Positions 17,403 through 49,339 of a stretch of DNA of 51,782 nucleotides are shown piece after piece. A program made the translations under genes and the position numbers. This DNA is from Prevotella sp. (lineage in GTDB: Bacteria; Bacteroidota; Bacteroidia; Bacteroidales; Bacteroidaceae): positions 1 through 51,782 of the forward strand of contig JAFPVW010000092.1 of the NCBI GenBank assembly GCA_017395215.1, in the 5' to 3' direction. Position 1 is the stretch's first letter; every line of letters begins with the position of its first letter. The notes under the pieces are model-generated. The model was not told the DNA's origin and searched no databases. It worked only from the letters and a program-made list of their open reading frames with translations.

Positions 17403-17442
17403 ACTTAGTAATAAAAATAGAATAAAGAAATAACATACAATT

Positions 17443-17622
17443 ATGAAAAAGACATATATAAATCCCACTATCGAATCTGTAGTTGTAGAGGCTGACGAAC
17501 AGTTGCTTTCAGGCTCAATCACGGAGACCCTTGACAATACGGATGTGTCAAGCGTTGATGATTTCATCCAGCTCAGTCGCGAAGTTGACGACATTATGGA
17601 ATTTTGTGTCGAAGACAACTAA
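17443..17622 (+). CDS. 59-residue acidic peptide, MKKTYINP / LLSGS type
   Basis: A short gene (59 codons) sits between the module protein (40 nt upstream) and the PL4-like lyase (11 nt downstream). It starts 'MKKTYINPTIESVVVEADEQ' and continues 'LLSGSITETL', then a strongly acidic tail ending 'DDIMEFCVEDN'. Short proteins with this MKKTY..P...LL(A/S)GS opening are common in Prevotella and Bacteroides and have no assigned function. A GS after a hydrophobic pair resembles a leader-peptide cleavage site, but no peptidase or modifying enzyme is next to it. Its packing in the operon supports that it is translated. Confidence 0.6.
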   Translation: MKKTYINPTIESVVVEADEQLLSGSITETLDNTDVSSVDDFIQLSREVDDIMEFCVEDN

Positions 17623-17633
17623 AAGACTGAATT

Positions 17634-33043: not shown

Positions 33044-33082
33044 ACTCCCCTCCCTCCAGGGAGGGGCTGGGGGTGGGTCTAC
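33044..33082 (+). repeat. GC-rich interspersed repeat, copy 2
   Basis: ACTCCCCTCCCT, CC, AGGGAGGGG, then CTGGGGGTGGGTCTACC. The stem-loop is the same as in copy 1. Its last bases supply the TAG stop codon of the uracil-DNA glycosylase gene (33079-33081, minus strand). Confidence 0.8.
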
Positions 33083-33744: not shown

Positions 33745-33766
33745 ACTGGAAAAACTATTTCTGCTA

Positions 33767-33774
33767 CAAAGATA
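33767..33774 (-). promoter_or_regulatory. ung promoter -7 box
   Basis: TATCTTTG on the minus strand lies 22 nt before the ung ATG. I could not confirm a -33 element. Confidence 0.55.
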
Positions 33775-33930
33775 CGACTTTTTCGGGAATTGGAATACGA
33801 GGGAAGCAGTTTTTTCTCTTTCTAACATCAATAAACGGATATTATGCGACAAATATGACAACTTTCCCCAAATATGTCGCAAAAAACGAATGTGTGTCGC
33901 AACAACCCGAAGCAAAAAACAAGAAAAAAG

Positions 33931-33961
33931 TTGGAACGAGCTGAAAACCGCCGTAACTTTG
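33931..33961 (+). promoter_or_regulatory. Promoter of the PepSY-like gene
   Basis: TTG (33931-33933), a 20-nt spacer and TAACTTTG (33954-33961) form a full consensus promoter 47 nt before the start codon. Confidence 0.75.
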
Positions 33962-34008
33962 CATCACAATTAAGAAACAAAAGTATAAACAATTAAAAAA
34001 TTACAATT

Positions 34009-34437
34009 ATGAAAAAGATGTTAGTTCTGTTAGCTTTAGTGCTGACAATGTTTGCCCCCGTAATGGCCGATAGCGACCGAGTAATAACCTTCGAGCAGCT
34101 GCCCGCACAGGTACGGACACTGCTGAAGAAGAATTTCGCCCACAAGGTGCCCCTCGTTGTCACCGTAGACAGGGACGACTACACAGTGAGGTTCCAGAGT
34201 GGTGAGAAGGCAGAGTTTGACAAACGAGGGAACTGGAGAGAGTTCGACTGTAAGATGTCGGCTGTACCCACTGCCCTTATCCCTGAGCAGATCAAGGCCG
34301 GCGTAGAGAAGACCTTCCCTGGAGCCGTTATCGTCAAGATTGACCGTGACCGTCGAGGCACTTACGATGTGAAGTTGAATAACGGCATGGAAATAGAGTT
34401 CAATAGTTATTTCCAGGTTATCGATATTGACGATTAA
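34009..34437 (+). CDS. PepSY-like periplasmic protein (DUF2874)
   Basis: The protein of 142 residues has a signal peptide (1-20) and two related halves. Each begins with a helix and continues into a beta hairpin: 'FEQLPAQVRTLLKKNFAHKVP...VTVDRDDYTVRF' and 'IPEQIKAGVEKTFPGAVIVKIDRD...YDVKLNNGMEIEF'. This is the PepSY-like fold common in Bacteroidetes, of unknown function and often near two-component systems; here a histidine kinase operon lies convergent 22 nt away. It has its own promoter. Confidence 0.85.
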   Translation: MKKMLVLLALVLTMFAPVMADSDRVITFEQLPAQVRTLLKKNFAHKVPLVVTVDRDDYTVRFQSGEKAEFDKRGNWREFDCKMSAVPTALIPEQIKAGVEKTFPGAVIVKIDRDRRGTYDVKLNNGMEIEFNSYFQVIDIDD

Positions 34438-34459
34438 GAACAGAATCCTGGAAGTCACG

Positions 34460-35233
34460 TCAGCCGTTTTTCTCAGTCATGTATTTCCAGTAGCGGCGGG
34501 GCATATCGCTGAGCTGCTTGCGAGGATTCATACGTTCCTTGATGCAAATGGCCTTGAAATAAGTGCGCCAGAGATTCTGTAGCAGTTGGTCGTCGCTACT
34601 AAGAACATCATCCTTAAGTTTGCCGTTCCCTAAGTCGAAGGGAACGGCTTTTTCGTCTTCGAAGGTTATGTGTATGACGGTTTTACCATCATAATAGTAC
34701 CCATAGTGCCGCTTGGCATCGTAGATGAGCCAGGACTGATCGTTGAAGCGGTCGTGGAAGTGGTCGATGATGAGGGGCAGCACGTTGTGGTCGGGCGAGA
34801 CGACGGCGAGATAGGTGCCGTCCTTGGCTTTCTGGAAGCGGATGAACTGTTTCATCCTCAGCTGCTCGTGCAGCACCCGTCGGGCGATGTTGGTCACAGC
34901 CAGCACGTCGGGGTCGGCAAAGTTGCGGGCGATGTCGCCCTGACGGAATACCTTGCATATATATTGGAACAGCGGCTGGTTCAGCTCCCTCAGTTCCGAC
35001 AGCCAGCTGACGGAGATCAGCCGCATCGCCTCGCGCGACAGCCGTTTCTCCAGTCCGGCCCACACGCGCCGCGCCTTCTCCTCGTCAGTATGTACCTTAT
35101 AGATACGGTCGCAGAATAGGGGCAGCGCGTCACCCTCCCTGAGCAGCTCCACAGCCTGCTCCTTCAGCGCGAAGGTGTCGAACACCGCCGTCAGCAGGCC
35201 GTCCATCGTGTTGTCGAATGTATATACCGTCAT
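34460..35233 (-). CDS. TIGR03915 / DUF4130 family protein
   Basis: These 257 residues match the DUF4130 type annotated elsewhere as a probable DNA metabolism protein. Seen are 'YTFDNTMDGLLTAVFDTF' at the start, 'RMKQFIRFQKAKDGTYLAVVSPDHNVLPLIIDHFHDRF' in the middle (cited by position about 125-162) and 'ERMNPRKQLSDMPRRYWKYMTE' at the end. It is normally paired with a radical SAM protein (TIGR03916) that is absent here. Its start overlaps the histidine kinase stop by 4 nt, so it is translated with the two-component pair, an unusual partnership. ung is only 0.7 kb away. Confidence 0.8.
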   Translation of the reverse strand: MTVYTFDNTMDGLLTAVFDTFALKEQAVELLREGDALPLFCDRIYKVHTDEEKARRVWAGLEKRLSREAMRLISVSWLSELRELNQPLFQYICKVFRQGDIARNFADPDVLAVTNIARRVLHEQLRMKQFIRFQKAKDGTYLAVVSPDHNVLPLIIDHFHDRFNDQSWLIYDAKRHYGYYYDGKTVIHITFEDEKAVPFDLGNGKLKDDVLSSDDQLLQNLWRTYFKAICIKERMNPRKQLSDMPRRYWKYMTEKNG

Positions 35234-36078
35234 CTGCTGAATTCGAGTGAGAAGGTGGTGCAGTAGCCGCCAGCGGGCTGGTCTTCAAGACTGAGCGTAC
35301 CGCCCTGTAGCATCATCAGCCGACGGGAGAAGGAGAGTCCGATGCCGCTGCCCGTGCGCTTGGTGGTGAAGAAGGGCACGAAGATGCTCTGGCGGGCCTC
35401 TGCGGGGATGGGCTGTCCGTTGTTGCTGACGAGCAGGACTTTGCCTGACTTCTGAATGGCAATACGGCTGGCTCCTGCCTCAATGGCGTTCTTGACGAGG
35501 TTGATGAGTATCTGGCGCAGCATGCTGAGGTCGGCACGGACGACGGCATCGTCAGGCACAGCGATGTCCCAAGCGACGTTAGGATAGAGCTGCTGAATAT
35601 CAGTCAGAAGGGCCGGCAACTGGACATCCTCGACGACGGGCTGCTGTAGTTGCGAGAGCTTACGGTAGGAGTTGACGAAGGCGTTCATGTGCTGCGAGGT
35701 GGTGAAGATGGCGTGAATGCCCTCTTCGAGCGGAGTACCCTTCACGTCAGGGCGACTCAGCAGCGACTGACTGATACTTGTGATGGGGGCTGTGGCGTTC
35801 ATCATCTCGTGGGTCAGCACGCGTGTGAGCCGTTCCCACGACTCCACCTCGCTCTGGTTCACCTGCTGACGGATAATCCCGCCCAGCTGGTTCAGCGTCT
35901 CCTGCATGGCCCGCTCACCAAAGAACATGCCGTCAGTAGGCATTCGGAAGGTGAAATCACGGTTGCGGATAGCCTCCTGCATCAGGTGGGCACGCAGGCG
36001 CAGCTTCCGCTGATGGCGTACGAACCACACCATGAAAGCCACAATGGCTACACCTATTATTATATATAGCCACATCAT
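35230..36078 (-). CDS. Membrane histidine kinase
   Basis: The kinase is short (282 residues): one N-terminal membrane helix (3-21) with almost no periplasmic part, a linker, a HisKA domain with His90 in 'RVLTHEMMNATAPI', and a HATPase with the N-box 'NLVKNAIEAG' (about 193) and 'GSGIGLSFSRRL'. This arrangement resembles NtrY-type cytoplasmic sensing, and the signal is unknown. It overlaps the response regulator stop by 4 nt and the DUF4130 start by 4 nt, forming one operon. The likely target is the divergent export locus. Confidence 0.9.
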   Translation of the reverse strand: MMWLYIIIGVAIVAFMVWFVRHQRKLRLRAHLMQEAIRNRDFTFRMPTDGMFFGERAMQETLNQLGGIIRQQVNQSEVESWERLTRVLTHEMMNATAPITSISQSLLSRPDVKGTPLEEGIHAIFTTSQHMNAFVNSYRKLSQLQQPVVEDVQLPALLTDIQQLYPNVAWDIAVPDDAVVRADLSMLRQILINLVKNAIEAGASRIAIQKSGKVLLVSNNGQPIPAEARQSIFVPFFTTKRTGSGIGLSFSRRLMMLQGGTLSLEDQPAGGYCTTFSLEFSR

Positions 36079-36599
36079 AGGCGTTTCATTTTGTTGTAGA
36101 GCGTCTGGCGGGTGATGCCTAACAGTTCGGCAGCCTGCGTGAGGTTGCCGTGACAGTGGTCGATGGTGCGGCGTATGTGCTCGCGCTCCATCTCGTCGAG
36201 GCTGACGATTTCGCTCTGCATGTCGAGCACATCCTTCAGCTTATGCACCAGCTCGTCGTTATCCCAGGGCTTAGTGATGAAGTCGGCGGCACCGTTCTTC
36301 AGTCCCTTTACGGCCAGGTTCACATCGGCGTATGCCGTCAGCAGCACCACTGGTGTCTGCGGGTGCTGCTTGCGGATGGCGCGAAGCCAGAAGAGTCCCT
36401 CGTTGCCGTTGTTCACGCCGAGGGTGAAGTTCATGTCGAGCAGCACGATGTCGATGGGCTGCTGCGCCATCAGTTTCAGTATGTCGTCAGGCTGGGTTGT
36501 GGTCAGCACCTGCTCGAAAGTGCCATCGAGCAAATAGCGCATCGCCGTGAGAATCGATGCGTTGTCGTCTACTATCAGAATCGTTCCGTACTTGTTCAT
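36075..36599 (-). CDS. Response regulator, receiver plus Fis-type HTH, no AAA+ domain
   Basis: The 174-residue regulator has a receiver with phospho-acceptor Asp55 ('VLLDMNF'), Thr88 and Lys110 ('ITKPWD'), followed directly by a Fis-type helix-turn-helix ('HGNLTQAAELLGITRQTLYNKMKRL', about 150-174). The sigma-54-activating AAA+ domain found between these in NtrC proteins is missing, as in RegA/ActR types. It probably activates at sigma-70-type promoters by binding GTCTAA-N3-TTAGAC. The ATG at 36599 is chosen because the receiver starts there; it lies 4 nt after a TACCTTTG box, so the mRNA may be leaderless. One palindrome lies upstream, allowing autoregulation. Confidence 0.9.
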   Translation of the reverse strand: MNKYGTILIVDDNASILTAMRYLLDGTFEQVLTTTQPDDILKLMAQQPIDIVLLDMNFTLGVNNGNEGLFWLRAIRKQHPQTPVVLLTAYADVNLAVKGLKNGAADFITKPWDNDELVHKLKDVLDMQSEIVSLDEMEREHIRRTIDHCHGNLTQAAELLGITRQTLYNKMKRL

Positions 36600-36603
36600 G
36601 CTG

Positions 36604-36611
36604 CAAAGGTA
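36604..36611 (-). promoter_or_regulatory. Response regulator operon -7 box
   Basis: TACCTTTG on the minus strand is followed by CAGC-ATG, the same arrangement as at the hybrid regulator gene. The shared palindrome centre (36652) lies 41 nt upstream. Confidence 0.55.
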
Positions 36612-36621: not shown

Positions 36622-36717
36622 GTCAAGAAATCATACAGTGAGGTGTCTAATTTTTAGACGTTCTGCACTCCGACGGCCCGAAAAGCTTGCATAGAGAGGA
36701 AGAAACCCTTAACTTTG
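36622..36717 (+). promoter_or_regulatory. tolC operon promoter with GTCTAA-N3-TTAGAC operator
   Basis: GTCAAGAAATCATAC (36622-36636), the palindrome GTCTAATTTTTAGAC (36645-36659), TTG (36687-36689), a 20-nt spacer and TAACTTTG (36710-36717) follow in order. The palindrome centre is 58 bp before the -7 box, exactly as at 46200 and 46882. Confidence 0.8.
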
Positions 36718-36741
36718 CATCAACAAAACAGGGGAAAGCGT

Positions 36742-38031
36742 ATGAAACAAGCATTGATTATCCTTCTTGCCCTTGCCGCAAGGCAGACCACCGCCCAAAA
36801 CGCGTGGACCGTGCAGCAATGTATGCAGTATGCCGTAGAGCACAACCACGAGGTGAAGCAGGCCGAACTGCAGCTCGACAACTATAAGGTACAGAAGACG
36901 AAAGCCGTAGGCAGTTTCCTGCCTTATGTGGATGCCGGCATAGGCGCACAGTATAACTTCGGCCGGGCCATCGACCCCGAGACCAACGGCTATACCGACG
37001 TGAGCACCTTTTATAACGGCTACCAGCTGCAGGCGTCGCTGCCCGTGTTCGACGGATTCAGTCGTCTGCATGCCCTGAAGGCCGCCAAGGCCGGCGAACT
37101 GATGGGGCGGGCCAGCCTCCGCCAGCAGCAGGACCTGACGGCGCTCGACGTGCTGCAGGCCTATACCAACGTGGCCTATTACGAAGGGCTGGTCAGCATG
37201 GCTGGTGAGAAGGTACAGGAGACGACGCTGCTGCTCAAGCAGACGCGCCTGCTTGAGGAGGTGGGGCGCAAGAGCGCTGCCGACGTGGCTCAGGTGGAGT
37301 CGCAGCAGGCTGAGGCCGACTATGAGCTGACGCGCCAGCAGAATCTCCATGCTTCGGCCTTGCTCGAGTTGAAGAAGGCGATGGGGTTTCCGATAGGCGA
37401 CAGTCTTGCCACCACAAGCTTCACTTCCGCCTCCTCTCCCGAAAAGAAGGGCGTTGGCTGTATTGCTGAGGCTGTCGCCCGCTATCAGATGGAAGCTGCA
37501 AAACACGAGTGGCGCCAGGCTCGTGCTTCACTTTTCCCCACTCTCTCGTTGAGTGCGGGCCTGAGCACCACTTATTTCCGGACCTTACATTCTGAGACGG
37601 CGGCATCGTTCAACAACCAGTTCAAGAACAACATGGGTGAGTACATCGGGGCCACGTTGAGCATCCCGCTCTTCAACCGCCTTCAGACCGTCACCAATAT
37701 CCGCAAGGCCAAGAACAACTATAAGATTGCCCACGAGGCATACCAGCAGAAGCTGCTCGAACTGGAAAAGCTGAGCCGCGAGGCTTGGCAGGACTGGCAG
37801 GGTTACCTGAAGCAGACCGCCCAGATGGAGAAGAAGGTAGAGGCCGACTCGCTGGCTTACCAGCTGACGCGGCGCCAGTTTGAGGAGGGACTCTCGACGG
37901 CCATCGACCTGCACACCACCGGCTCGCAACTGCTGAAGTCGAAGGCCACGCTGCTGCAATGCCGGCTGATGGCAATGGTAAAGGAACAACTTGTGAGATA
38001 CTATAACGGAGAACAGATATGGACAGAGTAA
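36742..38031 (+). CDS. TolC family outer membrane efflux protein
   Basis: The 429-residue precursor has a signal peptide (1-20, 'LIILLALAARQTTAQNA') and two outer-membrane-efflux repeats with long coiled-coil helices ('VQQCMQYAVEHNHEVKQAEL' and 'AVARYQMEAAKHEWRQARASL'). It would form the outer membrane channel of a tripartite exporter. The ATG at 36742 starts the signal peptide; it lies 24 nt after the -7 box. The gene overlaps the adaptor gene by 13 nt. It is the first gene of the locus driven by the response-regulator operator. Confidence 0.93.
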   Translation: MKQALIILLALAARQTTAQNAWTVQQCMQYAVEHNHEVKQAELQLDNYKVQKTKAVGSFLPYVDAGIGAQYNFGRAIDPETNGYTDVSTFYNGYQLQASLPVFDGFSRLHALKAAKAGELMGRASLRQQQDLTALDVLQAYTNVAYYEGLVSMAGEKVQETTLLLKQTRLLEEVGRKSAADVAQVESQQAEADYELTRQQNLHASALLELKKAMGFPIGDSLATTSFTSASSPEKKGVGCIAEAVARYQMEAAKHEWRQARASLFPTLSLSAGLSTTYFRTLHSETAASFNNQFKNNMGEYIGATLSIPLFNRLQTVTNIRKAKNNYKIAHEAYQQKLLELEKLSREAWQDWQGYLKQTAQMEKKVEADSLAYQLTRRQFEEGLSTAIDLHTTGSQLLKSKATLLQCRLMAMVKEQLVRYYNGEQIWTE

Positions 38032-39272
38032 TCGAAAAGACAAGGACACAGCGGCTGATGAAGTATTGGCCGTATATGGCTGGAGGCATCGGACTATTGG
38101 TTGTTGTGGGTTGGCTGATATTCGGCAACCACGCCTCGACGCTCAAAGTCAGCCGCGACGAACTGACCATCAGCGACGTGCAGCGCGCTGAGTTTAAGGA
38201 CTATGTGCGCACCAACGGGCAGGTGCTGCCCATCCAGGTGGTGCAGATCTCGCCCGAGGAGGGCGGCATCGTGATGGAGAAGGTGGTCGAGGAGGGCACA
38301 ATGGTGAAGAAGGGCGATGTCATCGTCCGTCTGTCGAACAGCAACCTCGACCTCCAGATTCTGAATGCTGAGGCTGAACTGGCCGAGAAGCAGAACCTGC
38401 TGCGCAACACGCAGGTGGCCATGCAGCAGGACCGCCTGAACAACCAGACGGAGCAGGCCCAGCTGGATATGGACACCCAGCGCCGACAGCGCACCTTCGA
38501 GCAGAACAAGCGGCTCTACGGCGAAAAGCTCATCAGCCGTGAGGACTACCTGCAGTCGCAGGAGGATTACCAGCTCGCAGCCAAGAAACGCTCGCTGATT
38601 ACGAAGCGCCTGAAGCAGGACTCGCTCTATCGCACCGTTCAGATGGACCAGATGGAGGACAACCTGCAGGCGATGCGCCGCAACGTCGTCTTGGTGCGCC
38701 AGCGTAAGGACAAGCTCGAAGTGCGCTCGGCCATCGACGGCGAGCTGGGCCTGCTCGACGTGGAACTGGGCCAGAGCATTCAGCCGGGACAGAAGATTGG
38801 TCAGCTGAACGACCTCTCGGACTATAAGGTTCAGGCACAGATCGACGAGCACTACATCGACCGCGTGCGCCAGGGGCTGACCGCCACCTTTACACGTGGC
38901 GACAAGCAGTATCAGCTTCAGGTTCGCAAGGTCTATCCCGAGGTGCGCGAGGGCAAGTTCCGCTGCGACTTCATCTTCAGAGGCGAGCGCCCTGAGAACA
39001 TCCGCACGGGCCAGACTTATTACATCGACTTGGAGTTAGGCCAGCCTGAGCAGGCCATCATCATCCCTCGCGGCACGTTCTTCCAGACCACGGGCGGCCA
39101 GTGGATTTTCGTGCTCTCCGCCGATGGCAGCAAAGCCTATCGCCGCCCCATCCGCGTGGGCCGCCAGAACCCTCAGCACTACGAAGTGCTTGAAGGCCTT
39201 GAGCCGGGCGAGCGTGTCGTGACCAGCGGCTACGAAGCATTTAAGGACAACGAGGTATTAGTAATGAAGTAG
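38019..39272 (+). CDS. HlyD/MacA-type periplasmic adaptor
   Basis: The protein (417 residues) bridges inner membrane transporter and TolC. It has a membrane anchor (about 18-36), a lipoyl half ('GQVLPIQVVQISPEEGGIVMEKVVEEGTMVKKGDVIVRL', cited by position about 67-105), a long coiled coil (about 110-230), the second lipoyl half ('VRSAIDGELGLLDVELGQSIQPGQ') and beta-barrel and proximal domains. The start overlaps tolC and its stop is 4 nt from the first permease gene, so the three are co-translated. Confidence 0.93.
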   Translation: MDRVIEKTRTQRLMKYWPYMAGGIGLLVVVGWLIFGNHASTLKVSRDELTISDVQRAEFKDYVRTNGQVLPIQVVQISPEEGGIVMEKVVEEGTMVKKGDVIVRLSNSNLDLQILNAEAELAEKQNLLRNTQVAMQQDRLNNQTEQAQLDMDTQRRQRTFEQNKRLYGEKLISREDYLQSQEDYQLAAKKRSLITKRLKQDSLYRTVQMDQMEDNLQAMRRNVVLVRQRKDKLEVRSAIDGELGLLDVELGQSIQPGQKIGQLNDLSDYKVQAQIDEHYIDRVRQGLTATFTRGDKQYQLQVRKVYPEVREGKFRCDFIFRGERPENIRTGQTYYIDLELGQPEQAIIIPRGTFFQTTGGQWIFVLSADGSKAYRRPIRVGRQNPQHYEVLEGLEPGERVVTSGYEAFKDNEVLVMK

Positions 39273-39276
39273 GACT

Positions 39277-41664
39277 ATGAAGACAATTATCAGAAACTTT
39301 ACATCGATATTCCGTAAGTTTGTTACAGCGAACCTGCTGAACCTGCTGGGGCTGAGCCTGGCTTTTGCCTCGTTCTTTGTCATCATGACGCAAGTCAACT
39401 ACGACCTGGGCTACAACAAGAGTTTTACGGAGCACGAAAAGCTGTTCCGCCTGACCATGAAGTTAGGCCCTGGCATGGAGGACTATGGCGTGACGCTGCC
39501 CCGCCCACTGGTGGAGCAGTTGGCGGCAGCGTCGCCGCATATCAAGGGCTATGGCATCGAGCAGGGCTGGGTCTTATTCGACCAATTTATGGTGGACGAC
39601 CAGGAGTATTCGCTGAATCTGGTATATGGCATCAACGACTTTATGAGCGTTTTCAAGCCAACCGTCATTTGCGGTGACTTGAAGGGATTGAACCAGTTGC
39701 CCAATATCGTGCTGCCGCGTTCAGAAGCGATGCGCATCTTCGGCACTGCCAATGCGGTGGGCAAAACCTTGAAATACAAATGGGTGGATGACTGGATTTT
39801 CAATGTGTGTGCCGTGATAGAAGACTATCCGGAAAACAACTTCCTGCACGGTATCAGCTTCAGGGGTATCAATGACAATGAAGGTAATTACCGCAACTGG
39901 AACTATCAGGCTTATATCCGTGTGGACGATGAAGCCAACCTGCCGAACGTGATTAGCGCTATGCGCCAGAAGGCCGTTGAGCTGTTCAAAGATGAGCTCA
40001 ACATGACAACTCCGCAAGAGGAGGAAGCCCTGCAAGTGGTGTTGACGCCTATTGCCGACACCCATTTCGCGAAAGACCTCAGCAAGGATTCGCCCAACAT
40101 CAAGTCGGTCAGCAGGAGTTCCGTCTATCTGCTCATCTGCTTCTCGCTGCTCATCGTCGTGATAGCCGCTGTCAACTTCATGAACTTCACCCTGGCCGAG
40201 ACACCGCTGCGCATCCGCAGCATTAACACGCAGAAAGTATTGGGCGCATCGACGACCAGTCTGCGCGGCAGTCTGCTGGCCGAGGCCGTCATCATCAGTC
40301 TGCTGGCATTCGCGGGGGCGATGGTGATGGTGTATGTGGCTCACGACTTAGGCTTGCAGGAGCTGGTTCAGGGCAGCATCCTGTTGCAGGATAACCTGTG
40401 GTTGGCAGGCGTCACCTTGCTCATCAGCATCGTGGTGGGATTGTTGGCCGGGGCCTATCCGTCGTACTACGTCACGTCCTTCCCGCCGGCGTTGGTGCTG
40501 AAAGGCTCGTTCGGCCTGTCGCCCAAGGGTCGCGTTCTGCGCACCTCGCTGATCTGCCTGCAGTTCGTCGTGTCGTTCATGCTGGTCATTGGCGTGGGTA
40601 TCATGTATCTGCAGAGCTACCTCATCTTCCACACCGACTATGGCTTCGACAAGGACGAAGTGATGGTGGTGCCGACAGCGCCCGACACGCGCAATCATGC
40701 CGATGCCATCGATGCCGACCTACGCAAGATTCCCGGCATTGAGGGGGCCTGTCTGGCCCAGAGCATCTTGGGCAGCAGCGACCGCTATCAGACGTGGGGC
40801 AGGGGCGAAGGCGACAAGCACATGACGTTTACCTGCATCTTCGTCGACTGGCGATTCCTCAGCGTGATGGGCATCGACATCGTGGAGGGCCGCAATTTCC
40901 GTCAGACCGATGGCGACGTGTACATCTTCAGCGAGTCGGCCAAGAAGAAATATCCCTGGCTCGCCGTCGATAAGCCTATCAACGACGAAGACATGCCCGT
41001 CGTCGGCTTCTGCGAGGACATCAAGTATGCCACCCTGCGCGTGGACGACAGCCAGCAGCCCATCGCCTTCTTGGTGCCCAGTCGTGACGGCTACTACTCG
41101 AAGGAAGGTTTCTGGCGCAACCATCTCTTAGTGCGCGTGGCGAAGGGCATGGATAAGCGCGAGGCCAAAGAGAAAGTGCTGGACGTGGTGCTGAAATACG
41201 AGCACGACAACGAGCTTGAAGTCAGTGACCTGCGCTATATGGACGATGTGCTGGAAGAATCGTACCGTCAGGAAAGGCTCTTCACCCAGCAGATTCTGCT
41301 GTTCTCGCTGCTGGCCATCCTCATCAGCATCATCGGCGTGTTTGGCCTGACGATGTTCGAGAGCGAGTATCGCCGCAAGGAGATTGGCATCCGCAAGGTG
41401 TTCGGCAGTTCTACGAAGGAAATCCTGATGATGTTCTGGCGCCGATACCTCTACATCCTGCTGGGCTGCTTCGTGGTGGCGGCTCCCATTGGCTACCTGG
41501 TGGGCCAGCACTGGCTCGAGGGCTTCGCCGTCCGCACCGCCATATCGCCCTTACTGTTCGTAGTGTCTTTCCTGCTCATCACCCTGATCACTATGCTGAC
41601 GGTGACTTACCAGAGCTGGAAGAATGCCACGGAGAATCCCGTGAACAGCATCAAGAATGAGTAG
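39277..41664 (+). CDS. FtsX/MacB-type ABC permease 1
   Basis: The 795-residue membrane protein has an N-terminal helix (about 18-38), a large periplasmic MacB-type domain, three membrane helices (about 280-425), one helix at about 430, a second periplasmic domain, and three C-terminal FtsX helices. Motifs are 'ESEYRRKEIGIRKVFGSS' before the last bundle and 'ATENPVNSIKNE' at the end. It has no Walker motif, so it needs a separate ATPase, which is not in the window. Substrates are unknown. Confidence 0.9.
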   Translation: MKTIIRNFTSIFRKFVTANLLNLLGLSLAFASFFVIMTQVNYDLGYNKSFTEHEKLFRLTMKLGPGMEDYGVTLPRPLVEQLAAASPHIKGYGIEQGWVLFDQFMVDDQEYSLNLVYGINDFMSVFKPTVICGDLKGLNQLPNIVLPRSEAMRIFGTANAVGKTLKYKWVDDWIFNVCAVIEDYPENNFLHGISFRGINDNEGNYRNWNYQAYIRVDDEANLPNVISAMRQKAVELFKDELNMTTPQEEEALQVVLTPIADTHFAKDLSKDSPNIKSVSRSSVYLLICFSLLIVVIAAVNFMNFTLAETPLRIRSINTQKVLGASTTSLRGSLLAEAVIISLLAFAGAMVMVYVAHDLGLQELVQGSILLQDNLWLAGVTLLISIVVGLLAGAYPSYYVTSFPPALVLKGSFGLSPKGRVLRTSLICLQFVVSFMLVIGVGIMYLQSYLIFHTDYGFDKDEVMVVPTAPDTRNHADAIDADLRKIPGIEGACLAQSILGSSDRYQTWGRGEGDKHMTFTCIFVDWRFLSVMGIDIVEGRNFRQTDGDVYIFSESAKKKYPWLAVDKPINDEDMPVVGFCEDIKYATLRVDDSQQPIAFLVPSRDGYYSKEGFWRNHLLVRVAKGMDKREAKEKVLDVVLKYEHDNELEVSDLRYMDDVLEESYRQERLFTQQILLFSLLAILISIIGVFGLTMFESEYRRKEIGIRKVFGSSTKEILMMFWRRYLYILLGCFVVAAPIGYLVGQHWLEGFAVRTAISPLLFVVSFLLITLITMLTVTYQSWKNATENPVNSIKNE

Positions 41665-41691
41665 GTAAATGCAAACAACAAAGAGAGAGAA

Positions 41692-44091
41692 ATGAACAGT
41701 TATCTGAAATTCCTGAGCCGGCATAGGCTGTTTACCGTTATCAATATCGTAGGGCTTTGCCTCTCGATGGCCTTCCTGCTGCTGTTGGGCGACCTCATCT
41801 ACCGCCAGACAACGGTAGAGAACTACCAGACGCGTGCTGACAGGACTTTCGTCGTTGGCAATGAAATGTGCATGATGTCGAACTTCCGTGTAGGCGAGCG
41901 ACTGAAAGACCGCTTTCCCGAGGTGGAAGACTGGTGCTCTATGGCTGGCTACGGCATGACGTTCAGCATCGGCGGGCAGAAGGCCGACGCCAAAGTGCTG
42001 GTCACGGGCCAGAACTTCTTTACGTTCTTCGACTACCGCCTGCTGACGGGCGACCGTCGGAAGGTGCTCAGTGCGCCCAACCAGATTGTGGTGAGCAAGT
42101 CGTTCGCACAGCGCTATTGGCCTAACGAGAGTCCAATAGGCAAGGAGATGGTGCTGGGCGATGACGAAATGGAGTTAGGCGATGCGAACGACGGGAAAGG
42201 TCATATCACTTACACCGTCAGCGGCATCATGGACGACTTCGACCGAAGCATCGTTCCCGACGGCTATGACTGCGTGTTCAACGTAGAGAACCTTCGCCAC
42301 TTCCACTATTCGGCCTGGAACGAGCAGATGAACAATGCGTCGTGCTGCGTCCTCTTCCTGATGCAACGCGAGGGTAGCAATCTGCGAAGCAAAACTGGCG
42401 ATATGATCGACTATCTTAAGACGTTTTTTTGGATTTATCAGATGGAGGCGGCAAAGGAACTGACGCTCACGCCGTTCAGCACGCTCTACTATGACGCGAT
42501 GGAGTGTTCGTTAGGGCAGGAAGACATCAATCACGGTAGTCGGGAGATGGCACACCTCTATGTAGTTGTTGCCCTGCTGGTGCTGGTGTTCGCCATCTTC
42601 AACTACGTGAACCTGAGCGTGTCGCTTACCACCGAGCGGTCGAAGGAGATGGCCACCCGGCGGTTGTTGGGGCTGTCGCGCCTGGAGGTCTTTGGCAAAC
42701 TGATGGGTGAGAGCATTCTCTTTACTGCCATTGCCTTCGTCGTTGGCTATGTGATAGCACTCGCCCTGCAGGACAAGGCGATGGAGATGGCCAACTGTCC
42801 GCTGGATTTGCTGAAGGATACGAGCTTTGGCACTATCGTTGCCTTCCTTGTCGGGATCATCCTCGTTGCCTCATTGGCAGGCTTCGTGCCTGCCACGATA
42901 CTCAGCGGCTACCAGCCTATTGACATCGTGCGCGGCACCTTCCGCCGTCGTGTCCGTCAGCGGTGGAGCCACGCGCTGATGGTCATTCAGGCGGTCTTTG
43001 CTATTGTCATGCTGACCATCACGCTATTGCTGGGCAGCAGCATCCGTGAACTCATGAACCGGCCGCTGGGCTATGACATCGAGAATATCCTCAAGACCTG
43101 GGATGTTGCCGGCTTCAGCGAGAGCCAGCGGCAGACGTTCCGCAGCAAACTGCTGGCACTGCCAGAGGTGGAAGCTGTAGGGTTCGGCTATGGCACACCA
43201 TTAGAGGGACTGGAGAACCAGACGGTTTCTGCCGATGACGGAACGGTGGTGAGCATGCGGCTATTGATGGGCGACAGTTGTTTCTTCAATATCCTGAACA
43301 TCCACCCTGACAGAATCTACACTGACAATGGCTTCGGGGCGAATCACCAACTGCTGCGACAGTTCGGCAAGAAGGACGACGAAAGGAAAATTGTGACTGC
43401 CGATGGAAAGGTGAATTTTGAAATTGCTGCCGTCTATCCGGATATGGTCTATCAGAACGTGATGCGCGAGAAGGAGCATCCCACACCTTTTATTATCATA
43501 CGCGAAAACGAATTCCGCGACAGCACTGACAACTACGCGAGCAAAAGGTACGGCAAGCCCCGTCTGGCATTGGTTAAATATCACGGTGAGCGCCAGAAAG
43601 TGGAGGATGCCATCAAGCGACAAATCAGAGCGATGACAGGCCAAGAGGCGGGCGACGTCCACTCACTTGCTCAGAGTCACGAGGATTGGTACAAGGACTA
43701 CAAGCGGTTCCTCAGCGTCCTGATGGTCTTTACGGCCGTTGCCCTGCTGATTGCCGTGCTCGGCCTGATGGCAATGAACAGCTATTTCATCAGTCAGCGC
43801 CGGCGCGAGATTGCCATCCGCCGCGTCTTTGGGGCAGAGATTAGCAGCATCACCCTGCACCTGCTCCTCACGGTTGTCATCCAGTCGGTCGTCGCTATGC
43901 TCATCGCCATCCCCCTCTCCTATTGGCTGGCTCCGAAGGTGGGCAGCATCTCCGGCCTCAGCATCCGGATGCAACTCCTGCCGTTGCTCCTCTCCCTCCT
44001 CATCGTCCTCGCTGTCAACGTCCTCACTGCCGCCTTCCAAGGCTGGCGCGCCGCCACCGAGAATCCCGTGAACAGCATCAAGAATGAGTAG
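41692..44091 (+). CDS. FtsX/MacB-type ABC permease 2
   Basis: A paralogue of permease 1 (799 residues) with the same double layout: N-terminal helix, periplasmic domain, central helices with 'ERSKEMATRRLLGLSR', a second periplasmic domain and 'QRRREIAIRRVFGAE' before the last three helices. The last 28 nt of the gene and its stop match permease 1 nearly exactly, a trace of duplication. No ATPase motif is present. It starts 27 nt after permease 1. Confidence 0.9.
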   Translation: MNSYLKFLSRHRLFTVINIVGLCLSMAFLLLLGDLIYRQTTVENYQTRADRTFVVGNEMCMMSNFRVGERLKDRFPEVEDWCSMAGYGMTFSIGGQKADAKVLVTGQNFFTFFDYRLLTGDRRKVLSAPNQIVVSKSFAQRYWPNESPIGKEMVLGDDEMELGDANDGKGHITYTVSGIMDDFDRSIVPDGYDCVFNVENLRHFHYSAWNEQMNNASCCVLFLMQREGSNLRSKTGDMIDYLKTFFWIYQMEAAKELTLTPFSTLYYDAMECSLGQEDINHGSREMAHLYVVVALLVLVFAIFNYVNLSVSLTTERSKEMATRRLLGLSRLEVFGKLMGESILFTAIAFVVGYVIALALQDKAMEMANCPLDLLKDTSFGTIVAFLVGIILVASLAGFVPATILSGYQPIDIVRGTFRRRVRQRWSHALMVIQAVFAIVMLTITLLLGSSIRELMNRPLGYDIENILKTWDVAGFSESQRQTFRSKLLALPEVEAVGFGYGTPLEGLENQTVSADDGTVVSMRLLMGDSCFFNILNIHPDRIYTDNGFGANHQLLRQFGKKDDERKIVTADGKVNFEIAAVYPDMVYQNVMREKEHPTPFIIIRENEFRDSTDNYASKRYGKPRLALVKYHGERQKVEDAIKRQIRAMTGQEAGDVHSLAQSHEDWYKDYKRFLSVLMVFTAVALLIAVLGLMAMNSYFISQRRREIAIRRVFGAEISSITLHLLLTVVIQSVVAMLIAIPLSYWLAPKVGSISGLSIRMQLLPLLLSLLIVLAVNVLTAAFQGWRAATENPVNSIKNE

Positions 44092-44169
44092 GCAGAGATG
44101 ACTATCCAGCCTGTTCTGACAATAAAAGAGGGGAGTATCGCGTTTCTCAATAAAGTAAGAAGATATTGT

Positions 44170-45219
44170 ATGGACCAAGAAACCTACGAGAAACAGAAAG
44201 CCTTTGCCGGCGAGAAGGTCCCTTCGATGCATCGCCGTATGGTGGGGCACGACTATCAGGAACGGCAGATGTATATGATTACGATGGTGACCGAGGACCG
44301 CCGCCCTTTGTTAGGGCAGGTCGTAGGCAGGAGCGACGGGCAGCCAGGCACGCCCGACGCGCCGCGCACCGAGCCCTCAGAGCTGGGGCGGTGCGTGGAG
44401 CGGTGCTGGCATGAAATAGCCCTACGCTACCCGCAAATAGAGGTGCTGGCCTTTCAGCTGATGCCCGACCATTTCCACGGCATCCTCTTTGTGAAGGAGC
44501 GCATCGACAAGCCGCTGGGCAAGGTGCTGCTCGGCTTCAAGCAGGGCTGTAACAAGGCTTTCCGCGCCCTCGTTCCCTCTGTTCCGTCTGTTGCTGTATT
44601 ACAGCAACAAACAGGAAAGAAGAAAGAAGACCGCAAGCACGGCCTGCTCTTTGAGCCGAGCTACAACGACAAGCTCCTGCTGCAGAAAGGCCAGCTGAAG
44701 CGCTGGAACGACTACCTGCGTAATAACCCGCGCCGGCTGCTGATGAAGCGGGAGCACCCCGACCTCTTCCGCGTACAGAGGGACTTGACCGTTGGAAACA
44801 TGTCGTTCTCTGCCATCGGCAACCGGTTCCTCCTGCAGCGGCCGGTCTTGTTGCAGGTGCAATGCTCCCGCCGACTGACGGAGGCTGAGATACATGAGCG
44901 CGTGACTTTCTTTACGAAAGCCGCTGCAAGGGGCGCTGTGCTGGTATCGCCCTCCATCTCGCCGGGCGAGAAGGCCGTGATGCGTGCCGCCTTTGAGCAG
45001 GGCTTCCCCCTTGTCTATCTGCAGGAGAACGGCTTCACCGACCTGGCCAAACCGGGCGGGCAGCGCATGGAGGCCTGTGCCCGAGGGCAGCTGCTCATCC
45101 TCGCGCCGTGGGAGCACCACAACGAGCGCACAACCATCAGCCGCAGCCAATGCCTCTCCCTGAACGACATGGCCCGCACTCTCTGTTCCGTATGTTGCTG
45201 TAGTACAGCAACAGACTAA
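44170..45219 (+). CDS. REP-associated transposase-like protein (Y1/HUH family) with extra C-terminal domain
   Basis: This 349-residue protein resembles REP-associated (RAYT) tyrosine transposases. 'LMPDHFHGILFV' carries the HUH histidines (HFH) and 'DYLRNNPRRLLMK' is the usual downstream motif. The last ~110 residues ('GAVLVSPSISPGEKAVMRAA', 'YLQENGFTDLAKPGGQRMEACARGQLL') are not part of the transposase and resemble a Rossmann-like domain of unknown role. An ATG at 44098, 6 nt after the permease stop, could also be the start. Two REP-like palindromes lie within its own coding sequence. It has inserted between permease 2 and the DUF4840 gene. Confidence 0.75.
   Translation: MDQETYEKQKAFAGEKVPSMHRRMVGHDYQERQMYMITMVTEDRRPLLGQVVGRSDGQPGTPDAPRTEPSELGRCVERCWHEIALRYPQIEVLAFQLMPDHFHGILFVKERIDKPLGKVLLGFKQGCNKAFRALVPSVPSVAVLQQQTGKKKEDRKHGLLFEPSYNDKLLLQKGQLKRWNDYLRNNPRRLLMKREHPDLFRVQRDLTVGNMSFSAIGNRFLLQRPVLLQVQCSRRLTEAEIHERVTFFTKAAARGAVLVSPSISPGEKAVMRAAFEQGFPLVYLQENGFTDLAKPGGQRMEACARGQLLILAPWEHHNERTTISRSQCLSLNDMARTLCSVCCCSTATD
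44589..44609. repeat. REP-like palindrome, copy 1
   Basis: TGTTGCTGTA, T, TACAGCAACA is a perfect palindrome with one central base, inside the transposase-like gene. With flanks CTCTGTTCCGT it matches copy 2. Confidence 0.85.
45193..45213. repeat. REP-like palindrome, copy 2
   Basis: TGTTGCTGTA, G, TACAGCAACA at the very end of the transposase-like gene, 4 nt before its stop. It is read in a different frame from copy 1 (CCC-S versus VAVLQQQ). Confidence 0.85.
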
Positions 45220-45243
45220 AACAGCAACGAAAGGGAAAGGAGC

Positions 45244-45286
45244 CCGCCAAACAGGGAGCAAACCTCCGCCAAACAGGGAGTAAACC
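45244..45286. repeat. Tandem 21-bp repeat after the transposase-like gene
   Basis: CCGCCAAACAGGGAG(C/T)AAACC occurs at 45244-45264 and 45266-45286. The following 45300-45380 is unusually GC-rich, with two GGGCGGCC copies and GCGACC/GGTCGC inverted pairs. No gene is seen from 45220 to 45492. Confidence 0.7.
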
Positions 45287-45492
45287 GCCCTCTTGCCAGA
45301 TTCGGACGGGCGGCCACACATCTTCGGGCGGCCGCCTTTATCAATGCGACCGAGCGGCCTTATACGTGGGGGCGGTCGCCAAAATCCACTTTTCTATCCT
45401 TCGATGTTTCCCCTCGGAGGTAGTAGACGGAAAGAGACCATGCACACAATAAAACAATGTTGCAATGCGTTTAACACATAGTAGTTAATCAA

Positions 45493-46152
45493 ATGAGAAA
45501 GACTGTGATGAGAAAACTCTTCTTTGCGCTGCTGGCTGCCCTGACCTTCGCAGCCTGTAGCAGCGACCCTGTGTTTCACGGCATGACAACGAAGCAGAAG
45601 GAGGACTACGCCAAGGCCATAGCAGGCGAATACAAGGGAACCTATGTCATCATCTATAACGGTGGCGGCAGCGACACCAAGGCCGTTAAGAAGGAGGGCG
45701 TGCAGATGACGGTCACTGACCTGACCATGCACTCCGTCTGTTTCCACGACTATCCTGTGAGCCTGCTCTCGAACGTGGTGGAAGACCGGACTTTGGCTGA
45801 GGCTCTGGCCGGCGCTCCCAATGTGGACTTTCTGGTCGACTATAGCTTCTACAATCTGCAGGACAACGGCGACGTCAACTGGGGCTTCGAGTCAACGGCC
45901 ATTCCGCTCACGCTCCATTACGGCGGCACAGACCACCACCTGATGCTGAAACTGAGCTCCCAGACCTATTTCCTTCTGACGAAAGCCAGTCTGGATGCGG
46001 GTAAGCCGTTTGCCAGTCAGGGCGTCTTCCAGTTTACGGTTGATGGCATCTACGAAGGCGACACGCTGCTTCAGAGTTTCGACGGCATCTGGCAGGATAA
46101 CGGGACGGAGTATCTGACCTACTTCCAGGTCGGCGAGGACAAGGCACACTGA
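45493..46152 (+). CDS. Lipoprotein, DUF4840-like
   Basis: The 219-residue protein has a lipoprotein signal ('ALTFAACSS', lipidated Cys near residue 22). The mature part ('GEYKGTYVIIYNGG', 'VQMTVTDLTMHSVCFHDYPVSLLS', cited in parts) resembles DUF4840 of Bacteroidetes, a beta-rich lipoprotein of unknown function. The second ATG at 45508 gives an equally good signal peptide. I see no TAnnTTTG promoter in front, so it may be read from the tolC operon. The signalling and export neighbours suggest an envelope role. Confidence 0.7.
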   Translation: MRKTVMRKLFFALLAALTFAACSSDPVFHGMTTKQKEDYAKAIAGEYKGTYVIIYNGGGSDTKAVKKEGVQMTVTDLTMHSVCFHDYPVSLLSNVVEDRTLAEALAGAPNVDFLVDYSFYNLQDNGDVNWGFESTAIPLTLHYGGTDHHLMLKLSSQTYFLLTKASLDAGKPFASQGVFQFTVDGIYEGDTLLQSFDGIWQDNGTEYLTYFQVGEDKAH

Positions 46153-46169
46153 GGGGCTTAGGATAGGGC

Positions 46170-46265
46170 GTCAAAGAATCATACGCCGAACTGTCTAATT
46201 ATTAGACAATCTGCTTCCGCCAGGGTGGAAAGCCTTGGAGGCATCGAGGGGAAATGCTAACTTTG
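46170..46265 (+). promoter_or_regulatory. DUF3836 gene promoter with GTCTAA-N3-TTAGAC operator
   Basis: GTCAAAGAATCATAC (46170-46184), palindrome GTCTAATTATTAGAC (46193-46207), TTG (46235-46237), 20 nt, TAACTTTG (46258-46265). Palindrome centre to -7 box is 58 bp. Bases 46170-46241 form one copy of a 72-bp repeat with the promoter at 46852. Confidence 0.85.
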
Positions 46266-46302
46266 CAGTGGATAATTAATTCTTTAACTTAACTGTACGA
46301 TT

Positions 46303-46848
46303 ATGAAAAAGTTAGTATTTGCAACCCTTATGTGCTTAGCAGCCATGAGTGCCAAGGCACAAGTACTCACCTCGAAGACCGTAAGCAACGTCTATGAGCA
46401 AGTATCGAGCCAGACTGAAAGCGATTACGCCTTCAATGCCGAGAGGACGGCGGGCGACATCACCACGATGTATGTCTATCAGAAGACCCTTAACCGCAAG
46501 GGCGAAGTGAGCCTGCATCCCCATCTGAAGTATGCGTATGAGTATGCTGCCGACGGCACACTGGCCAGTCGCGTAACCTACCGTTGGAGCAACAGCTTGC
46601 GCGACTGGTTGTGCGCCTCCCGCTACGACTATACTCTGGAGCATGACAGCTACCGTGCTGAATACAGCCGCTATAATCATCAGACAGACAGCTTCGACCA
46701 ACCCGTAGAAAGAATGGTCTATACGCTATTCAATGGCGACATGGTAAACTGCGTCAGCTGTTACCATCGCGAACGCCCGACGAGTCCCTTCCAGTTGGAC
46801 TGTCAAGTAGCTGTTAGCGGGCTGCCACAGCTCTTTGCCGGGAAATGA
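46303..46848 (+). CDS. Secreted DUF3836-like protein
   Basis: The 181-residue protein has a signal peptide (1-19, ending 'SAKAQ') and a beta-hairpin-rich body. Repeated 'Y.YQKTLNRKGEVSLHPHLKYAYEYAADGTLASRV' type strands (cited by position about 63-100) resemble DUF3836 of Bacteroidetes; its function is unknown. It has its own promoter carrying the response-regulator palindrome, so it is a direct member of that regulon. It lies alone between two copies of the 72-bp promoter repeat. Confidence 0.75.
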   Translation: MKKLVFATLMCLAAMSAKAQVLTSKTVSNVYEQVSSQTESDYAFNAERTAGDITTMYVYQKTLNRKGEVSLHPHLKYAYEYAADGTLASRVTYRWSNSLRDWLCASRYDYTLEHDSYRAEYSRYNHQTDSFDQPVERMVYTLFNGDMVNCVSCYHRERPTSPFQLDCQVAVSGLPQLFAGK

Positions 46849-46851
46849 GGT

Positions 46852-46947
46852 GTCAAAGAATCATACGCCGAACTGTCTAATTATTAGACAATCTGCTTCC
46901 GCCAGGGTGGAAAACCTTGGCGGATTCGTTTTTATAGGGTAACTTTG
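46852..46947 (+). promoter_or_regulatory. Promoter of permeases 3 and 4 with GTCTAA-N3-TTAGAC operator
   Basis: The same array as at 46170, offset by exactly 682 bp: palindrome 46875-46889, TTG 46917-46919, 20 nt, TAACTTTG 46940-46947. Only two mismatches separate 46852-46923 from 46170-46241. Confidence 0.85.
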
Positions 46948-46969: not shown

Positions 46970-49339
46970 ATGAAGAGCTATTTCAGATTCCTGTCGCGCA
47001 ACAAGCTATATACCTTAATAAATATAGCAGGGCTGGTGGTGTCGCTGATGTTCATCATCCTGATGGGCGATTATACCTGGCGCCAAAGCGCTATCGACTC
47101 GTGGCACAAGAACGCCAGCCGTATCTACCTGATGGGCAATGAGAAAATGTTCTTCATGTGGCCGCAGGCAGCAGAAGAGATTAAGAAGCAATGCCCTGAG
47201 GTGGAAAAGACCTGTTGCGTGTTGAGTGCTGATGGTAGAATCAAGTATGGACAGCAGGAAGTGAAATCAAAAGATGCTGAGGAAGGCATCATCATGCTGG
47301 CTGACTCGACGTTCTTCCAGTTCTTCGACTTTGAATTGGTAAAGGGAGACCGTCAGACGGCCTTAGATGCACCAGACAAATGCGTCATCACTGAGCAGTT
47401 GGCCAAGAGTCTTTTTGGTAGTAAAGATCCCATCGGAGAATCATTACAGATAGTAGGCAATCGCCATGTGTATATCAATAATGCAGCAGATCCTTACGAT
47501 AGTACTTTGGTGTATATCGTCAGCGCAGTTGCCAAGGACCTTGACCATACTGTCTTGCCTAACGAGACGCAGGTGATTGCGAGCATGGAGCGTTATCCGC
47601 AGGTGGCAGGCTATAAACTTGGAAACAATATGTTTGCTCACGCATCCACAGGTGCCATCAAGACCTTTCTCATGCAGAAGCCTGGCACGAACCTTGAGGG
47701 AAAGAAAGGGCAAATAGAAGATTACCTGCGAAAGAACTATGCCAATGCGTGGGGCAATTATGAACTGAGTCTTACACCGCTTACAGATGTCATATTTGCA
47801 CCACAGAACGATGGTGTGGGTATGATAAAGGGCGACAAGACGAGACTCCAGATACTGCTTGCAGCCGTGTTGGCTATTCTCTTCTTCGCCGTGAGCAATT
47901 ATATCAACCTGACGGTGGCCAATACTGGCTTCCGTGCCAAGGAAATGGCCACACGCAAACTCTTTGGCAGCAGCCAGCATGAGGTTTCGCTGAAGCTGAT
48001 TGCCGAATCGACGCTGATGGTGGCCGTTTGCTTTGTCGTGGGCTTTGGCTTGGCCTGTTGTTTTCAGGACGATGCAACGGTACTGTTCAAAGGGCGGATT
48101 GCGCTGATAGACGATATTCGCTTAGAGACGATAGGCGTGAGCGCAGGCTTTGTCTTGTTGACAGGCATCATTTCGGGTATTATGCCCTCGTGGCAGATTT
48201 CGCGTTTTGAACCTATCGACATCGTGAAAGGCAGCTTCCGTTTCCGTTCCAAGATGGTGCTGGGCAAGATGTTTGTCATTCTACAGAATGTCATCACCAT
48301 CACGATGCTGACTTCTGCCCTCGTCATCTGGTTGCAGTTGAACCATCTCATTCATGCGCCTTTGGGCTACAACACCAAGAACCTCTACTATGTCTATGCC
48401 CCCCAAGGGAAATTCCAGGTAGCAAGGAATTTGCTGGAGAAGATGCCGTTTGTCGAGGAGATCGGCGTTTTCCAAAAGACGACATTCTCGAAAATGAGTT
48501 GGAACTCGCAAACCATCAATCGTGACGACAAGAAGGTGCAAATGCTCTTGACCGATATGGACAGCACAGCCTTTAAACTCTATGGCCTGGAGATTCTGAA
48601 GGAATACGGTCTGACGAATGGTGGCTATTATCTGAATGAGGAGGCCATGCGCCAGTTGGGCTACACAGATGCTGACCGCGAGATAGACTGGGGTGGTGGA
48701 GATAAAAATCCAATCGCAGGCATTCTTCGTGACTTCAATCGTGTTAATGTGTTGCATGATGTGGAGCCTTTCGCTATTCGTCTGCAGGACAATATGGAGT
48801 ATCCTGGCTTCTTGGTGAAGACATCTGGTGACAAGAAGGCAAAGGCGGCTTTTACAGAGATGGTCAAGGCGTTGGGCTGTCCTGAGACTGAGGCAAAATG
48901 GTTTGTCAGTGGTTTGGAGGAGGGCATCGCCGAGACCTTCGAGGACCAGCAGAACACGCTGAAGATCATTACACTCTTCACCCTTGTGGCCATCGTCATC
49001 TCCGTGCTGGGCTATCTTGGCATGTCGCTCTTCTTCATCCGTCAGCGGCAGAAGGAGATTGCCATCCGCAAGGTGATGGGTTCCTCATCGTGGGAGGTGT
49101 TGTTGCTGATGCTCCGCACGTTCTCAATCCCTATGCTGATTTCGTTTGTCATCGCTGTGCCTATCTCATGGTACATCATGCGCGACTGGCTCAGCAACTT
49201 CAGTTACCGCATCGCGCTCAGCCCTTGGATATTCGCTGCTGCCGGGTTTACCTGCTTCATCATTTCCCTGCTCACCGTTATCATCCAGAGCTGGCGCGCT
49301 GCTTCTGAGAATCCGATTAACAATATTAAGACAGAATAA
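46970..49339 (+). CDS. FtsX/MacB-type ABC permease 3
   Basis: The third paralogue (789 residues) starts 'MKSYFRFLSRNKLYTLINIAGLVVS', like permease 2. Central helices follow 'FRAKEMATRKLFGSSQHEVSLK' and C-terminal FtsX helices follow 'RQRQKEIAIRKVMGSSS'; the end is 'AASENPINNIKTE'. It lacks ATP-binding motifs. The -7 box lies 22 nt upstream of the ATG. Its codon use is a little more AT-rich than that of permeases 1 and 2. Confidence 0.9.
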   Translation: MKSYFRFLSRNKLYTLINIAGLVVSLMFIILMGDYTWRQSAIDSWHKNASRIYLMGNEKMFFMWPQAAEEIKKQCPEVEKTCCVLSADGRIKYGQQEVKSKDAEEGIIMLADSTFFQFFDFELVKGDRQTALDAPDKCVITEQLAKSLFGSKDPIGESLQIVGNRHVYINNAADPYDSTLVYIVSAVAKDLDHTVLPNETQVIASMERYPQVAGYKLGNNMFAHASTGAIKTFLMQKPGTNLEGKKGQIEDYLRKNYANAWGNYELSLTPLTDVIFAPQNDGVGMIKGDKTRLQILLAAVLAILFFAVSNYINLTVANTGFRAKEMATRKLFGSSQHEVSLKLIAESTLMVAVCFVVGFGLACCFQDDATVLFKGRIALIDDIRLETIGVSAGFVLLTGIISGIMPSWQISRFEPIDIVKGSFRFRSKMVLGKMFVILQNVITITMLTSALVIWLQLNHLIHAPLGYNTKNLYYVYAPQGKFQVARNLLEKMPFVEEIGVFQKTTFSKMSWNSQTINRDDKKVQMLLTDMDSTAFKLYGLEILKEYGLTNGGYYLNEEAMRQLGYTDADREIDWGGGDKNPIAGILRDFNRVNVLHDVEPFAIRLQDNMEYPGFLVKTSGDKKAKAAFTEMVKALGCPETEAKWFVSGLEEGIAETFEDQQNTLKIITLFTLVAIVISVLGYLGMSLFFIRQRQKEIAIRKVMGSSSWEVLLLMLRTFSIPMLISFVIAVPISWYIMRDWLSNFSYRIALSPWIFAAAGFTCFIISLLTVIIQSWRAASENPINNIKTE

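Follow-up and report, generated by a model that had tools for sequence, protein, structure and literature searches.

Tandem palindromes at an efflux locus of Prevotella

The window, that is, the whole stretch of 51,782 nucleotides of Prevotella sp. DNA that was analyzed (contig JAFPVW010000092.1, assembly GCA_017395215.1), contains a small two-component system beside efflux genes, and an array of two palindromes and a promoter precedes three of the plus-strand genes. The response regulator (36075..36599, minus strand, 174 amino acids) consists of a receiver (REC) domain and a helix-turn-helix (HTH) domain of the Fis type (Pfam Response_reg, 6.5e-23; HTH_8, 3.2e-16), in agreement with the sequence-only reading that had drawn attention to the arrays. 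No Sigma54_activat domain, the part that would carry a Walker A motif and a GAFTGA-like loop, was found in it; it is a two-domain regulator, REC plus HTH_8 without an AAA+ domain. Its gene overlaps by 4 bases with that of a sensor histidine kinase of 282 amino acids (35230..36078, minus strand; HATPase_c, 1.1e-17), in which no PAS domain was found at E 0.01. Divergently oriented, on the plus strand, are the genes for a TolC-like outer membrane efflux protein (36742..38031; OEP, 5.7e-50 for the frame 36715-38031, in which the ATG at 36742 was chosen), an HlyD-type membrane fusion protein (MFP; 38019..39272; HlyD_3, 5.9e-13), permeases 1 and 2 (39277..41664 and 41692..44091), a DUF3836 protein (46303..46848; PF12930, 6e-13) and permease 3 (46970..49339). 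All three of these permeases match MacB_PCD and FtsX, so that the OEP, HlyD and MacB_PCD/FtsX genes of a MacAB-TolC type pump are present; in the four permeases, no ATPase family of an ATP-binding cassette (ABC) transporter was matched at E 0.001.

Each array combines a weak, distal palindrome with a strong, proximal one, their centers 23 bp apart. In array 1, the strong palindrome, an exact GTCTAA-N3-TTAGAC, lies at 36645-36659 (center 36652) and the weak one, GTCAAGAAATCATAC, at 36622-36636, both without strand; the promoter of the TolC operon (36687-36717, plus strand) follows with TTG at 36687, N20, and TAACTTTG at 36710-36717. Array 2, before the DUF3836 gene (46170-46265, plus strand), comprises a weak site at 46170-46184, a strong site at 46193-46207 (center 46200), and a promoter with TTG at 46235 and TAACTTTG at 46258-46265. 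In array 3, before permease 3 (46852-46947, plus strand), the corresponding positions are 46852-46866, 46875-46889 (center 46882), 46917 and 46940-46947. The proposed coupling of palindrome and promoter is thus real: in all three arrays, TAACTTTG starts 58 bp past the strong center, with TTG-N20 ahead of it. The sequence GTCAA..AATCATAC (36622, 46170, 46852) that had been described as a further component is also present in all three, but it is not a separate element; it is the degenerate second palindrome, a weaker copy of the GTCTAA-N3-TTAGAC type. All three arrays exist, but they represent only two independent cases in the window because a duplicated cassette accounts for both copies 2 and 3, with 68 of 69 bases alike and only 16 of the next 27; copy 1 shares 46 and 47 of the 69 bases with copies 2 and 3, respectively. 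This 69 bp direct repeat (46170-46238 and 46852-46920, 68 identical) flanks the DUF3836 gene, and the gene and its promoter cassette look as if they had been inserted or duplicated together.

The exact palindrome occurs three times in the 3,595,740-base genome, each time in the window and within 10.3 kb beside the regulator (one match in the reversed-letter control). Searching for the palindrome, N50 and TAnnTTTG with up to three mismatches yielded the same three sites at zero mismatches and one additional match with three mismatches, namely copy 1 in the direction of the regulator; the reversed control gave two. A search with the palindrome only was discarded as evidence, since its 15 matches in the window at up to three mismatches, compared with 11.8 expected, are not above chance; thus, only the exact copies stand out.

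TAnnTTTG at −7 and TTG near −33 are the elements of a promoter for the main sigma factor, sigma-ABfr, the consensus being given in passages of PMC7366714, which also describe short leaders as rare in B. thetaiotaomicron. No TGGCAC of the −24/−12 promoter type was found at the arrays of the window, TAACTTTG being present at 58 instead. Array 3 contains, between operator and −7 box, a terminator-like hairpin (46898-46924; 11 pairs, then TTCGTTTTTA; folding z-score −3.3), with the −33 TTG in its 3' arm; one terminator-like site was found, compared with 0.9 expected in shuffles.

The −7 box of the regulator gene itself, TACCTTTG (36611-36604, minus strand), lies 41 bp from the strong site of array 1, as had been noted, and 18 bp from the center of the weak site, which covers the regulator's own −33 region. 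Autoregulation had been proposed on the grounds of the 41 bp distance; with the weak site over the −33 region, autorepression appears at least as likely as autoactivation. The box ends 4 bases before the ATG (36597-36611), and the regulator mRNA is therefore predicted to be leaderless or nearly so; a similar arrangement recurs in many of the related loci described below.

Conservation of the operator spacing among two-domain loci

To assess conservation, we analyzed the best 80 of 570 relatives, with regulator identities of 83-99%, from records labelled Prevotella, Xylanibacter, Prevotellaceae, Bacteroidaceae or Bacteroidales, and a few labelled 'bacterium'. The tandem pair was present at the search threshold in all 80 loci, with the weak/strong layout of array 1, and across whole loci it was accompanied by a −7 box at 57-59 bp in 79 of them. 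Within the interval that separates the regulator from the divergent gene, 73 of the 80 loci have TAnnTTTG at 58 bp (59 bp in three loci) from the strong site; in L050 and L110, the site listed is the weak one at 81, corresponding to 58 from the strong site, so that 75 loci fit. The remaining five are L067, L083, L086, L095 and L113, of which L083, L086 and L095 show TAACTTCG near this position by eye. Hence the position that had been taken to fit class I activation was borne out: the distance is constant and the site is upstream of −33, both of which this mode would require; activation itself is a prediction from this geometry. Column counts were made on 79 of the 80 loci, 61 after removal of near copies. 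Both palindromes are conspicuous in these 61, TTG stands at +35 in 44, and each letter of the −7 box is conserved in at least 56; a conserved TCTGC at +10 to +14 stands out as well. On the side facing the regulator, most of the 80 loci place the −7 box of the regulator gene 40-41 bp from the strong site; longer spacers occur in some, and in others no box fits this pattern. In several loci, among them L063, L064, L068, L069 and L112, a related insert of about 70 bp (GCCAAAT..TTTGAGCTTTTTCGA) separates this box from the operator, the two being 112-114 bp apart; L054 and L061 are similar.

Of 17 further two-domain loci, 16 likewise have palindromes spaced 23 bp and the −7 box at 57-59, and TGGCAY at 62-64 occurred in one of the 80 and in none of the 17. 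A further class differs: a single palindrome with the −7 box at 68 or 69, one helical turn further than 58, is present in L135, L137, L158 (two sites), L159, L201, L212 and L213. The regulators of L137, L159, L201, L212 and L213 are distant two-domain forms with 38-50% identity; in L196, L202, L204, L206 and L208 of the distant clade, palindrome and box were not found together.

With respect to the neighborhood, a uracil-DNA glycosylase-like gene and a DUF4130 gene lie downstream of the kinase (33079-35233), the latter overlapping the kinase gene. DUF4130 was rejected as a member of the system, being present in only one of the 75 sufficiently long loci among the 80. Farther away, at 439-20393, there is a pectin/rhamnogalacturonan degradation cluster with a hybrid two-component regulator and GH2, GH106, RGL11 and PL4-like genes.

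AAA+ relatives and promoter type

Other genera of the same family encode many related regulators of about 445-475 amino acids with REC, AAA+ and HTH_8 domains, that is, of the NtrC type. Their AAA+ domains contain a Walker A motif ITGENGTGK or ITGENGIGK and loops resembling GAFTDA or GSFTDA (one GAFTGA), and Sigma54_activat matched the three scanned forms at E 1e-65 to 1e-68. Among 40 AAA+ loci, 26 have a tandem pair, with a spacing of mostly 22 or 21 bp, and in 23, TGGCAY lies 62-64 bp from the proximal site. In many of these, the sequence beyond the −24 box goes on to form a plausible −12 element (TTTGGCACGTTTTCTGCA in L155 is an example), and a −7 box at 57-59 was seen in one locus only (L194, read toward the regulator). 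Three AAA+ loci (L147-L149) share the divergent gene order of the window, with 43-44% (TolC) and 68-71% (MFP) identity to the window proteins; TolC-like matches were found in 22 of the 40. Between the classes, regulator identity is about 45-68% on single domains. The kinases differ as well: most of those in two-domain loci have about 265-309 amino acids, the outliers being 353, 695 and a truncated one of 175, and most of those in AAA+ loci have about 379-463, the outliers being 290-293 (L209-L211) and 632 (L192). PAS domains were present in two of three scanned kinases from AAA+ loci versus none of two from two-domain loci.

The pairing of spacing and promoter type was examined across 201 genomes with a two-by-two pattern test (spacing 23 or 22, TAnnTTTG or TGGCAY, at most one mismatch, reversed controls). 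Spacing 23 with TAnnTTTG at 58 gave 42 matches (control, 3), 10 of them not palindromic (repeats in G107, G177 and others); the 17 exact matches come from 14 genomes, all of which have a two-domain regulator match of 55-81% identity. Spacing 22 with TGGCAY at 63 gave 27 matches (control, 1), 10 of them exact in 9 other genomes, all with a regulator match of NtrC length; the 17 one-mismatch matches include several, in G007, G035, G021, G102, G183 and G036, that are no palindromes, and one exact match (G120) has the TGTAAAG half-sites of another NtrC-type regulator. For the mixed combination of spacing 23 and TGGCAY, there were no exact matches and 11 with one mismatch in the 201 genomes (control, 3). 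These were rejected as hybrids: 8 of the 11 fall on the same tandem sites as TAnnTTTG arrays, and in the four that could be read (L241, L243, L251 and L252) a −7 box with a CA tail is one base from TGGCAY, indicating spill-over. The other mixed combination, spacing 22 and TAnnTTTG, gave 17 matches (control, 1); the only exact one reads TATTTTTGGCACGC, overlaps a TGGCAC (−24) box, and comes from a genome (G073) with arrays of both kinds and different half-sites. Thus, no unambiguous hybrid array was found among the 201 genomes. Counted from the proximal center, AAA+ loci mostly read TTTGGCA and two-domain loci TTTGCA, in both cases up to +67, which suggests that −24 and −7 boxes occupy the same place on the operator with a difference of one base. 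In L165, TAnnTTTG at 57 and TGGCAT at 63 are both present.

Loss of sigma-54 was rejected as the driver of the change because rpoN (PF04552) was found in 197 of the 201 genomes, including that of the window. Sigma-54 activators number one at E 1e-40 or better, plus one partial, in the window genome, and up to four (G044, G160) in other genomes with two-domain regulators, with none in G129; a background of fewer activators fits only loosely.

Ancestry of the circuit, alternatives and known systems

A tree of REC plus HTH was built from 99 rows, with 12 AAA+ outgroup rows; L179 was left out as truncated, L227 and L229 because the motif was not found in them, and L240 because it has no receiver, and L239 has no row. 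The clade of the window regulator (38 two-domain rows, support 96/83) is nested among AAA+ forms, and the distant two-domain clade (10 rows) has a support of 100/100. With the AAA+ outgroups, architecture needs two changes; a tree that holds both two-domain clades together was not rejected (approximately unbiased (AU) test, p 0.558). Loss of the AAA+ domain in the regulator's ancestry is the simplest reading of this tree, not a proven one.

We regard it as probable that the tandem arrays are the operator of the adjacent regulator, and that loss of the AAA+ domain went along with a change of promoter class on a conserved operator. Two regulator dimers would bind the palindromes 23 bp apart, and the proximal dimer, about 65-70 bp before the transcription start, would aid RNA polymerase with sigma-ABfr in the class I manner. 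The polymerase would start at the TTG-N20-TAnnTTTG promoters, so that the predicted targets are the TolC operon, the DUF3836 gene and permease 3, and the weak site of array 1 suggests negative feedback on the regulator. Such a circuit was probably derived from an NtrC-type one, with a full-length regulator, palindromes 21-22 bp apart and sigma-54 promoters before pump operons of this kind. A single loss of the AAA+ domain would have occurred in this clade, and its target promoters would have passed from −24/−12 to −33/−7, with the operator kept. A more specific scenario, which we put forward tentatively, is that the whole circuit changed its polymerase partner in place, AAA+ loss coming before the point changes that converted the promoter; the shared register of the −24 and −7 boxes means that point changes after loss of the motor could do so. 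Under this scenario, the overlapping TATATTTGGCAT or TATTTTTGGCAC boxes of L165 and L245 would be a present-day dual state, and the distant clade with its single site and −7 box at 68-69 a parallel solution.

Several observations weigh against the derivation from an NtrC-type circuit or limit its reach. Among the 40 AAA+ loci, 17 lack a sigma-54 box at 62-64 and 14 lack a tandem pair, and not all of them are orthologues (exceptions: L209-L211, L151/L181/L185). In L136, L174, L161 (both sites) and L160 (one site), an exact palindrome is accompanied by neither promoter type. The tree backbone is poorly resolved and 4 of the 12 outgroup rows fall inside the ingroup, so that the root, and hence loss rather than gain of AAA+, is not proven. 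The further two-domain clade of 10 rows may or may not share the loss, and the architecture classes coincide with clades, so that the loci are not independent and represent one or two events. Finally, one genome (G065, 81% complete) has the array and no regulator match.

This last case, together with G059, in which a −7 box lies 68 bp from a single palindrome and no regulator match was found, counts against the claim that the arrays belong to this regulator, and would also suit another binding protein, with the regulator adjacent by gene order only. The claim held for the most part: the arrays accompany a REC-HTH_8 regulator in the 80 loci and many further genomes. Another binder is very unlikely in view of the clustering of all three exact genomic copies beside the regulator and, in a small and partly related sample, of the covariation of sites with the recognition helix: in 4 loci whose regulators carry A or K instead of its N, the half-sites resemble TGTATGA and TGTC is found in 0 of 24, as opposed to 362 of 556 for N (90 loci). 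That the regulator acts on its arrays as a repressor, or in both directions, appears quite unlikely; the weak site over its own −33 region would suit such a role, but at all three targets the two palindromes are found, strictly spaced, upstream of −33, and polymerase would not be blocked directly from there; moreover, sigma-54 promoters, at which the related AAA+ arrays are located, depend on an activator. The likeness to the AAA+ loci might also have arisen by separate recruitment of Fis domains and pump genes to an ordinary two-domain (RegA/PrrA-like) regulator with a class I operator of its own. The tree, with its outgroup not on one side of a branch, leaves room for this, as do the regulator identities between the classes and the commonness of pump genes, the TolC-like matches being confined to about half of the AAA+ loci. 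We nevertheless consider it unlikely, given the shared gene order and protein identities of L147-L149, the same palindromes, a recognition stretch (TRQTLYNKMKR) that is identical in the window protein and several AAA+ forms, and the nesting of the two-domain clade among the latter.

The closest known systems are the NtrC-family sigma-54 activators of the same bacterial family, which resemble the window system in REC, Fis HTH, recognition helix and palindromes and, in several loci, in the divergent TolC, MFP and permease genes. They differ in that the window regulator lacks AAA+, its targets have TAnnTTTG rather than −24/−12 promoters, and the spacing is 23 instead of 21-22 bp. RegA/PrrA/ActR, like the window regulator, combine REC with a Fis HTH and lack AAA+; they are set apart by different operators. 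FtsX-like COG0577 permeases of Bacteroidia are enriched for predicted sigma-54 promoters (PMC12316311), which fits the AAA+ loci; the passages of this paper considered here mention neither an operator nor a regulator class nor a change of promoter type. No prior description of such a case was found among the titles and abstract beginnings listed by searches of the open-licence literature. If true, this would be a clear natural example of how loss of the motor made an ordinary activator out of a sigma-54 activator; operators, targets and promoters of both types can be read in its living relatives. The way in which promoters change their sigma class would thereby become a directly testable question, and the analysis predicts the regulon, and the sites, of an efflux system in Prevotella-like bacteria of rumen and gut. 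The NtrC proteins of Rhodobacter capsulatus and Caulobacter and VspR of Vibrio cholerae, according to passages of PMC10274813, have no GAFTGA loop and act at housekeeping (sigma-70) promoters. They are thus likewise NtrC relatives active with a housekeeping sigma factor, but, as described there, they keep the AAA+ domain, whereas the window regulator is without the whole of it.

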